A DNA stretch of 41,391 bases from Patescibacteria group bacterium (GTDB lineage: Bacteria > Patescibacteriota > Patescibacteriia > 2-12-FULL-60-25), in the NCBI GenBank assembly GCA_028715505.1, contig JAQURS010000008.1:1-41391 (forward strand), written 5' to 3'. Numbering within the stretch: position 1 is the stretch's first letter; every line of letters begins with the position of its first letter. Shown here one piece after another: positions 2,974 through 41,391 of the stretch. A program made the translations under genes and the position numbers. Under the pieces are notes generated by a model. That model was not told the origin of the DNA. It ran no database searches and saw nothing but the letters and a program-made list of their open reading frames with translations.

Positions 2974-3519
2974 ATGAACTTAAAAACTTATACTACCGTT
3001 CGGCTGGTTACGGTTTTCGTCTTGGCCATGGTCTGCGGCATGGCCGTTTCGACCCAAAACTATTTCTTAGCCCTGCCAGCCATCATTATAGCGTCTTTAC
3101 TCCTGTTTTTGGTCAGGAGTAAAGTCAAAGAAATCATTGCCGACGAGCGCGATTATGAAATCGGGGGCAAGGCGGCCCGGTTTGCTATCCAAATCTACAG
3201 TTGGATAGCCGTGGTTGCCATGTTCTTGCTGCTTTGGCAAAAAAATTTAAACCCAAGCTATGAGCCGGTCGCTTACACCTTGGCATACTCGACCTGTTTG
3301 CTTTTATTGGTCTATTCGCTGGTATTTCGCTATCACGCCAAATATTCCATGTGTAATAAAAAAGCGATCTACACTATCCTCGCAATAATCATCTTCCTTG
3401 TTTTGGTTTTGGGCGGCGTAAGGTTGTTTAGCGGTGAAGACGATTGGATTTGTTCCAAAGGCCAATGGATCAAGCATGGCAATCCCTCTTTTCCGCCTCC
3501 GGCCATTGAATGCAAATAA
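2974..3519 (+). CDS. DUF2178-like integral membrane protein
   Basis: 181 residues with about five hydrophobic helices (roughly 10-28, 32-48, 66-88, 98-118, 130-150). The loop [16 protein letters not shown] is typical of DUF2178 proteins, which commonly sit beside a small XRE regulator as here. The C-terminal tail carries two cysteines in the pattern [12 protein letters not shown]...EC, probably on the outer face. The biochemical role of the family is unknown. The XRE gene follows after two bases, so the two are co-transcribed. No Shine-Dalgarno is visible; the leader should be about 26 nt. Regulation is probably by the tandem dyads that overlap its promoter. Confidence 0.8.
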
Positions 3520-40286: not shown

Positions 40287-40553
40287 TTACTTGGTTATAT
40301 CGTTCTTCTTGGCTTCGTATTCTTCTTTGCTGATTTCGCCTTTAGCATAGCGTTCATTCAAGATATCCAAAGCCTTACCCTGATCAGCCTGGCCATGATA
40401 ATGCCTTTGCATATATTCCCAGCGTCGAAATCGGCTGCCGCGAAGCAAAGCGATAATTAAAACGATAACTAAAACCCAGAATAGAAACATCGCTATTCCG
40501 CCAAATAAGCCCCATCCGCCCATCATATAAGGATAATAACCGTAATACATCAT
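40287..40553 (-). CDS. Small SHOCT-domain membrane protein
   Basis: 88 residues from ATG 40553. The N-terminus is Tyr/Met/Gly-rich (MMYYGYYPYMMGG), followed by one strong hydrophobic helix (about 18-36). The C-terminal SHOCT motif is KALDILNERYAKGEISKEEYEAKK. SHOCT is a short oligomerisation or scaffold segment found at the ends of many membrane proteins. The frame is open upstream to a TTG at 40592, but that TTG begins a TTGACA sequence that looks like a -35 box, so the ATG is preferred (40550 also possible). Function unknown; metal- or envelope-stress links are only conjecture. Confidence 0.85.
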   Translation of the reverse strand: MMYYGYYPYMMGGWGLFGGIAMFLFWVLVIVLIIALLRGSRFRRWEYMQRHYHGQADQGKALDILNERYAKGEISKEEYEAKKNDITK

Positions 40554-40804
40554 ATAAGTACTAATACGAAGGATCGGGGGAGAGACTGTCAAAAAGAAGT
40601 GGGATAACGAAAATCAAACAATACTAAGGTAAGCGAGAGAAAAAAATATTTAAAAATTTTTTTAAAAATAATTCTAAAAGGGAACTAAAACACACAAATG
40701 TCACCAGACGCTCAAAGCGGTAAAAGTCAAAAATAGAGCAAGAGGGAAGGGGTGTGGAAAGAAAGAGGCCGTGTTTAAAGGCTATAAACTGGCGTCGCAC
40801 AATA

Positions 40805-40885
40805 TATGTTATACGAAGCATAATGAGCTTTTTAGCTTAACTGCTAATTAAGCAAGCCAGCTACATTATGCATTCGTATAACATA
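40805..40885. repeat. Long inverted repeat A, 25-bp arms with two bulges
   Basis: Left arm 40805-40829 pairs with right arm 40859-40885: TATGTTATACGAA, GCATAATG and AGCT pair fully, with single unpaired A at 40863 and 40872 in the right arm only. An inner hairpin GCTTAA (40835-40840) / TTAAGC (40848-40853) lies in the loop. No T-run, so not a terminator. Confidence 0.8.
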
Positions 40886-40887
40886 AC

Positions 40888-40926
40888 GCAGCTTGTTACG
40901 ACACTAATAGTGATCGTAAAAGCTGC
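40888..40926. repeat. Inverted repeat B, 17-bp stem with two bulges
   Basis: GCAGCTT, TTACGA and CACT (40888-40905) pair with AGTG, TCGTAA and AAGCTGC (40909-40926). One unpaired base per arm (G40895, A40913), loop AAT. It begins two bases after repeat A. Confidence 0.75.
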
Positions 40927-40951
40927 TTCTCTGCTTATTATTTAAAATTTT

Positions 40952-41391
40952 TTACTTAAAATAAACTTTCCCGGGTACTCTGACATCAATATACTCGTAG
41001 ATCTGGTCTAATTTCGGTTTTGAGGCCAAAAAGGCTCTCAAGGTCTCTATTTGGGTATCCAGGGTATCATCCAGCTCAAATAAAACGTTTTTATTCTCTT
41101 TTAGGATAACTGATATGGACTCAGACGGCTCTAGGCCTATATCCAAGGCCTTAAACCAAATTCCAGCGTCCCTGAGCTTATTTGCGGTAATCAGCCACTT
41201 CCGGACCATGGTTGAATCCGTAAACGTCTGGTTTTTGTCGTAAGTCGTTGTAACCGAAGTTATCACGTAAATTTCTTTAGGCGTATTAACCGGCGAGGGA
41301 CTAATAAGATACTGACGCGTTATGGATGTGGTTGTGGCATCAGCGAAGTCAGTAACCGCGCCGTAATCATCAACCACGTACATGTTGTTCT
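40952..41391 (-). CDS. FtsQ/DivIB-like protein, 5'-truncated by the window edge
   Basis: The frame is open to the window end, so the start is beyond 41391; the in-frame ATG at 41383 is probably internal. About 145 C-terminal residues are visible. They read YVVDDYGAVTDFA, like the start of the FtsQ domain after POTRA (FYVDxxGxVF), then a helical and beta segment, and end with QIYEYIDVRVPGKVYFK, like the YIDLRFxxxVYYK ending of FtsQ. FtsQ/DivIB is a membrane-anchored divisome organiser. The overall match is moderate and no neighbouring division gene is visible, so the call is tentative. Confidence 0.6.
   Translation of the reverse strand, partial: NNMYVVDDYGAVTDFADATTTSITRQYLISPSPVNTPKEIYVITSVTTTYDKNQTFTDSTMVRKWLITANKLRDAGIWFKALDIGLEPSESISVILKENKNVLFELDDTLDTQIETLRAFLASKPKLDQIYEYIDVRVPGKVYFK

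Follow-up and report, generated by a model that had tools for sequence, protein, structure and literature searches.

A chromosomal dif site with an adjoining gene-free folded unit, putatively inserted by the host Xer recombinase, in a Patescibacteria group bacterium

The dif site and its surroundings

The window, i.e., the whole stretch of DNA analyzed here (41,391 nucleotides, contig JAQURS010000008.1), carries the following features close to its right end:

40792-40819, plus strand: dif site, composed of arm 1 (XerC-like side, 40792-40802), centre (40803-40808) and arm 2 (XerD-like side, 40809-40819)
40805-40885, no strand assigned: hairpin A, formed by dif centre bases TATG, arm 2 and flank paired with an inverted copy
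40870-40885, minus strand: arm 2 in inverted copy, containing an additional A, together with the inverted last four bases of the centre (CATA)
40888-40926, no strand assigned: hairpin B, a weak inverted repeat of an arm-1-like sequence
40927-40937, plus strand: expected position of a displaced old arm 2, decayed beyond recognition (7 mismatches out of 11)
40952-41383, minus strand: C-terminal half of an FtsQ/DivIB-like gene, truncated by the contig end, with dif downstream of it

On the other side of dif, a small minus-strand ORF with a SHOCT domain occupies positions 40287-40592, and an AT-rich palindrome (40649-40678) is found between this ORF and dif.

The sequence at 40792-40819 is a dif site for chromosome dimer resolution. 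It reads GCGTCGCACAA-TATATG-TTATACGAAGC and has the 28-bp, 11-6-11 layout and the near-palindromic arms of a dif site; V. cholerae dif1 is given as AGTGCGTATTA-TGTATG-TTATGTTAAAT in PMC3089051. The near-palindromic arms (GCGTCGCACAA versus, reversed, GCGTCGTATAA in the common form) fit with the use of a single recombinase. Hairpin A starts within the dif site and overlaps its right part, and the 28 bases that overlap the left end of this hairpin were the best-conserved stretch in a DNA search of relatives. The preliminary description placed the hairpins correctly but began 13 bases inside the key feature and thus missed dif; the pieces that it likened to lox arms are the right Xer arm of dif and the inverted copy of that arm.

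When up to 3 mismatches were allowed, one dif site was found in each of 33 out of 41 family genomes. The genome of one relative, G004, is absent from this count because its contig (C52, locus L003) ends inside dif; such an assembly break could come from mixed alleles at the site. A survey of class genomes that were at least 85% complete, allowing 2 mismatches or fewer, retrieved dif in 84 out of 246 genomes, as a single match in 83 and as two matches in G193. The site is thus near-unique per genome, as expected of dif. Arm 2 was represented by 48 different sequences among 105 loci; greater variability is not claimed from this count, because arm 1 was fixed in the search pattern and arm 2 was mostly unconstrained.

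In all 20 family loci examined, dif is located downstream of the same FtsQ-like gene. A full-length relative of this gene product gives weak matches to FtsQ (E 0.0032) and to POTRA_1 (E 0.0012, below Pfam's cut-off). Another contig of the same genome (G000:C11:3-119) opens with a piece identical over 39 residues to the truncated gene (window 40955-41383); judging from this sequence match, it probably adjoins the contig of the window.

GC skew was sampled at 20 points along a 971-kb contig of a genome from the same genus (G001), in which dif is located at 524.9 kb. Ten samples, the last of them at 462 kb, had a positive skew, the value at 500 kb was close to zero, and the nine samples from 530 kb onwards were negative. 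The orthologous site in G001 is therefore at the GC-skew switch. The analysis was informative in one out of three genomes examined, since G049 and G109 showed no clear skew; the genome of the window itself is too fragmented.

The same genome, which is 97% complete, encodes one Xer recombinase of 315 aa (257.6 bits with the XerC, 256.0 with the XerD and 239.6 with the XerA profile; 130.1 bits with the integron integrase profile, whose cut-off is 265) and an FtsK gamma domain, i.e., both protein partners expected of a dif site. The further tyrosine recombinase matches are a 402-aa integrase (64.6 bits with the integron integrase profile) and an unclassified 85-aa fragment; neither of the two classified tyrosine recombinases is an integron integrase. 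In agreement with the preliminary description, no recombinase was seen among the 16 window ORFs scanned against Pfam; the Xer gene is found on another contig. A search for Y1 transposases returned no matches in this genome and was positive in 5 out of 14 control genomes.

Xer orthologs are 68-97% identical in family members where they were found. The exceptions are G002 and G009, with no match, and G007, with a 35% partial match; all three genomes are less than 90% complete. Two close copies (97% and 82%) are present in G004. Four class members (G037, G039, G040 and G044) encode only a distant Xer (33-46%) and have no dif pattern. The Xer proteins of G036 and G042 are closer (57% and 61%), yet the pattern is missing there too, so the correlation between Xer and dif is loose.

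Two hairpins and their counterparts beside other dif sites

The outer stem of hairpin A is 25 bp long, with unpaired A residues at 40863 and 40872, both on the 3' arm, and encloses an inner hairpin of 6 bp (40835-40853). After a two-base spacer (AC) follows hairpin B, which has 17 bp, the loop AAT and one unpaired base on each arm; its arm-1-like parts are at 40893-40904 (inverted) and 40913-40921 (direct). The two hairpins occupy the whole unit and there is no gene inside, hence no cassette gene with attC. The two adjacent bulged hairpins first noticed in the sequence are thus borne out in place, arms, unpaired bases, gap and lack of a T-run. The fold is far outside shuffle expectation: z-scores on the two strands were -9.1 and -8.0 for RNA (40795-40936) and -10.0 and -11.1 for DNA (40805-40926), and in both cases none of 200 dinucleotide-preserving shuffles was as good, which confirms that hairpins A and B are real.

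It had been suggested to search the genome and relatives for copies; a lack of copies, of transcription and of conservation would have made the feature an isolated inverted repeat. The comparison comprised 105 dif loci, of which 34 belong to the family and 69 to other class members; the remaining two (L084 and L087) are biased because they were found by a dif-plus-inverted-copy pattern. At each locus, the best inverted copy of its own last three centre bases and arm 2 was determined within 170 nt. On the right of dif, the numbers of loci were 5, 10, 1, 4, 32, 42 and 11 for 0, 1, 2, 3, 4, 5 and 6 edits, respectively. On the left, they were 1, 30, 67 and 7 for 3, 4, 5 and 6 edits, with no value below 3. 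As can be seen, the right-side distribution is bimodal, with 0-1 edits in 13 out of 103 loci when the two biased ones are left out (G000, which is the genome of the window, G002, G004, G008, G020, G026, G034, G049, G092, G093, G139, G206 and G262).

Three further loci (G033, G173 and G052, with 3, 3 and 5 edits) were added by eye on the basis of hairpin B despite a weak match in A. One locus that passed the edit cut, G147 with 2 edits, was dropped because the match is a second arm-1 half-site 157 nt away. A unit is therefore present to the right of dif in 16 out of 103 loci (13 by the fixed cut and 3 by eye) and absent from 87. Carriers make up 8 of the 34 family loci and 8 of the 69 others, and belong to seven families (f1, f10, f15, f18, f42, f45 and f48). 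One of the two biased loci, L087, on a contig titled Candidatus Doudnabacteria, also has a unit. Comparable two-hairpin units beside dif thus exist in other genomes, and the feature is not an isolated repeat.

At two loci of family f57 (L156 of G125 and L157 of G147) a second arm-1 half-site with centre (GCGTCGCACAATATAC) is found about 150 nt to the right of dif, with no arm 2; it looks as if insertion happened on the other side there.

In the carriers, hairpin A consists of the centre and right arm of dif paired with an inverted copy of themselves, and hairpin B in most cases resembles an inverted repeat of the left arm, so that the unit can be described as a dif folded on itself. Its length is about 74-129 nt (76-129 nt in 15 measured carriers and 74 nt by repeat spacing in L086). 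In eight family carriers, 95.5% of cells are paired, compared with 32-49% in slid registers, and 9 covarying pairs (both sides changed) were observed versus 4.2 in shuffled alignments, none of 500 being as high. Extra stem bases number five on the 3' arm and two on the 5' arm, too few for a claim of strand bias.

The arms of the unit track the dif variant of each genome, e.g., a centre ATC is mirrored by GAT on the right, and ACC by GGT. In 15 out of 17 carriers, the 3' arm ends in three bases exactly complementary to the genome's own centre; there is a wobble in G033, and G173 does not match (G052 was left out, and the edit measure already includes these three bases). The arm differs from its own dif by a mean of 1.24 edits versus 4.08 for others (permutation p at the floor of 1e-5), and the own dif gives the single best match in 13 of the 17 carriers and is unsurpassed in 16; this is a description only, since the loci were partly chosen for the own-arm match, and the left-side control is the fairer one.

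Hairpin B begins 0-4 bases after A in 15 carriers (G206, G173 and G052 were left out because their automatic fold was unusable). In this set, its 3' arm has a mean of 2.27 mismatches out of 9 to arm 1 (GTCGCACAA), versus 4.13 for shuffled sequences. The likeness reaches the 5% level individually in nine of the 15. The window copy is not among them: it has 3 mismatches out of 9 and 0.146 of the shuffles are as good, which is not significant alone. Likeness to arm 1 is weak in G000, G002, G026, G033 and G034 and clear in other carriers; in the third unit of L086, hairpin B is an exact inverted repeat of the arm-1 sequence.

Junctions, arrays and sister species

A dif half-site borders the far end of the unit in three to four cases. 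Old arm 2 is readable directly after hairpin B in G002 (TTATACGGCGC), G206 (TATACGACGC) and G173 (TATACGACAT); it is harder to discern in G020 (TTATAGGAACA, 4 mismatches out of 11). The leftover in G002 is the same as the own arm 2 of G001, which has no unit. Among the 15 measured carriers, G002 alone shows a clear old arm 2 and G020 a partly readable one; in the remaining 13 loci, the position of old arm 2 shows 5-10 mismatches, though the stems are well kept. At the left end of the unit, dif has the same centre type as in unit-free loci, while the centre at the right junction pairs inside B. For a tyrosine recombinase, this combination would point to the exchange of one pair of strands at the arm-2/centre boundary.

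Two genomes have tandem units. The old arm of G020 opens a second, decayed hairpin. In G206 (L086), three units follow each other in a row, and the first two share 57 nt at 96% but differ in loop B. In the second unit of this array (L086, 782-930), loop B measures about 80 nt; no sizeable payload was seen in any other unit. The region to the right of dif at another locus (L174 of G092) contains repeated pieces of hairpin B that flank an assembly gap, which may mean that a longer array collapsed in assembly.

The sister species G002 and G004, whose neighbouring genes are 93.5% identical, carry units of different length, with different loops and a different arm 2; in G002, hairpin B and the common flank are separated by 54 additional bases. 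No two hosts among the carriers share an identical unit, so no recent transfer was seen. Within the genome of the window, no second copy of either hairpin was found except for the inverted own arm at 40870-40885. No gene-bearing loop was present in 16 out of 16 carriers in the stretches read, and no hairpin A with a long loop within up to 1.3 kb.

Origin of the unit and comparison with known systems

We consider it likely, on balance, that the feature consists of dif and a gene-free element of about 118 nt that was inserted to the right of the dif centre by the host Xer. In favour of this reading are the identity of dif, the presence of one Xer and of FtsK gamma in the genome, the bimodal distribution on the right side only, the covarying stem pairs, the likeness of B to arm 1, the leftover arm 2 after B, the arrays, the difference between sister species and the CTXphi precedent (PMC3089051). 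The element would run from arm 2 through loop A to the inverted versions of arm 2, of the centre and of an arm-1-like sequence, then through loop B to the arm-1-like sequence in direct orientation and the centre. Once the ends of the single-stranded element are joined, stems A and B would stack to form a pseudo-dif, which Xer would pair with double-stranded dif, exchanging one pair of strands, presumably at the arm-2/centre boundary. The three or four complementary bases that end the 3' arm of A would pair with the host centre, and replication would then fix the insert. Since the insert would supply a new arm 2, dif would stay usable, and the old arm 2 would be displaced to the far side, where it would decay. 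New elements would stack next to dif like cassettes at integron attI, and the units may still be mobile today. The single strand could come from DNA uptake, replication or a phage. Counting against this reading are the lack of a centre complement in G173, the lack of a free form in the searches described below, the mostly decayed old arm 2, the lack of an identical unit in two hosts and the weak arm-1 likeness of B in five carriers; furthermore, an element of about 100 nt carries no gene that could move or copy it.

The unit could instead be a non-mobile host structure, whose inverted Xer arms load or orient Xer at the terminus, or a palindrome that template switching during replication makes and keeps near-perfect. 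Selection for structure or hairpin-templated correction would be expected to produce the compensatory changes, and would agree with stems that are well kept while old half-sites have mostly decayed, and with a unit that is always at dif and only on its right side. We regard this as unlikely, since 87 out of 103 dif loci do without the unit, which is thus not needed for dif, since sister species differ, and since the arm-1-like B, the leftover arm 2 after B and the tandem units would be unexplained.

It is less probable still that the unit is the scar of a larger CTXphi-like single-stranded prophage that lost its genome from loop B and left the attachment hairpin behind. The order of parts is that of the CTXphi attP, with loop B at the place of the genome, and the long loop B of the second L086 unit would suit such an origin. 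However, neither the loops of the carriers nor the phages searched (see below) supplied the missing link, i.e., a gene-bearing loop or a phage with the hairpin, and repeated exact loss of a whole genome would be unlikely.

It is highly improbable that the hairpins are a structured RNA or a terminator belonging to the FtsQ-like gene, whose transcript is directed toward dif. The hairpins lie 25 nt downstream of the stop codon and fold strongly on both strands, but no T-run adjoins either of them, the two nearby sites given by a terminator scan are neither A nor B, and no Rfam match was obtained for the region up to E 5. Furthermore, most relatives have no hairpins at the same gene, and the arms match dif rather than forming a free stem.

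The preliminary description had proposed a single-strand recombination site and named attC, REP and IS200/IS605 ends; the kind fits well, but membership in these families can be practically dismissed, for the extrahelical bases of the imperfect hairpin and the integron-like arrays beside a fixed site are outweighed by the lack of a Y1 transposase and of a second copy in the genome, by a set of tyrosine recombinase matches made up of one Xer, the 402-aa integrase (neither of the two being an integron integrase) and the unclassified 85-aa fragment, and by a unit free of genes.

The closest known system is the attachment hairpin of CTXphi-type IMEX (PMC5357621 and PMC3089051), and the unit would work like one. 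The CTXphi hairpin is folded from two inverted dif-like sites and is integrated at dif by XerC/XerD; a few base pairs formed with the target centre stabilize strand exchange (PMC3089051). The likenesses are two inverted dif-like sites that form one stem on single-stranded DNA (the arm-1 side being weak in the window), centres of unequal length (12 and 7 nt for CTXphi versus about 12 and 5-6 nt for G002), and one working dif with decaying half-sites after insertion (clear in G002, G206 and G173, less so in G020 and gone in the window). Base pairing with the centre would be shared as well, here at the other boundary: the unit junctions point to the arm-2 boundary, whereas CTXphi exchange takes place at the XerC boundary. 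The unit further differs in having about 74-129 nt with no phage genome or gene and one Xer instead of two; the CTXphi stem is described as having no extrahelical bases (PMC4792948), and several units here have single ones. Since a carrier genome is a defining feature of IMEX, and no gene or long loop was found in the stretches read, we do not class the unit as IMEX.

Integrons provide a second parallel. Their cassette arrays are ordered with the newest cassette first. The unit carries no cassette gene, its arms are dif arms and no integron integrase was identified. According to PMC4792948, integrons resemble the arrangement proposed here in combining a double-stranded fixed site with a folded single-stranded partner, in keeping structure while sequence varies and in forming arrays beside the fixed site. 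LME-1, a mobile element with a dif mimic that uses the single-Xer system of Legionellales, is similar in the mimic and the single Xer but is a full element, and a folded unit is not mentioned in the portion of PMC9765430 drawn on here. The pdif modules of Acinetobacter are small segments moved by Xer sites; unlike the unit, they carry genes between these sites, and folded gene-free units are not mentioned in the excerpts describing them. No report of folded elements beside dif in these bacteria was among the literature matches listed.

More tentatively, dif may double as an integron-like platform, at which one housekeeping Xer captures gene-free, folded, single-stranded cassettes of about 100 nt, newest first, each swapping one dif arm. 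If true, this would be an attachment site able to spread with no genome of its own, and it would represent a living intermediate that links dif recombination to integrons. Folded single-strand recombination is so far known from integrons and a few filamentous phages, and a gene-free, single-Xer form across seven families would make the step from dif to integron testable. The locus would offer a record of recent gain and loss in bacteria that have not been cultured, and each insertion would rewrite one arm of a site needed for chromosome resolution.

No free, phage or plasmid form of the unit was found in pattern scans of viral contigs, in GenBank phages or in GenBank plasmids. The viral contig scans gave 5 and 7 matches that resemble chance (the 5 are in coding DNA) and two plain dif sites, both on IMG/VR contigs (L080, 6356-6377, and L081, 97-118); other scans gave none, and neither did the plasmids. 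In GenBank phages, one plain dif was retrieved, in MW202497.1 (at about 3302-3329, corresponding to L250 3201-3228), the complete circular genome of a siphovirus from a spring, which suggests a phage that uses or mimics the host Xer site.
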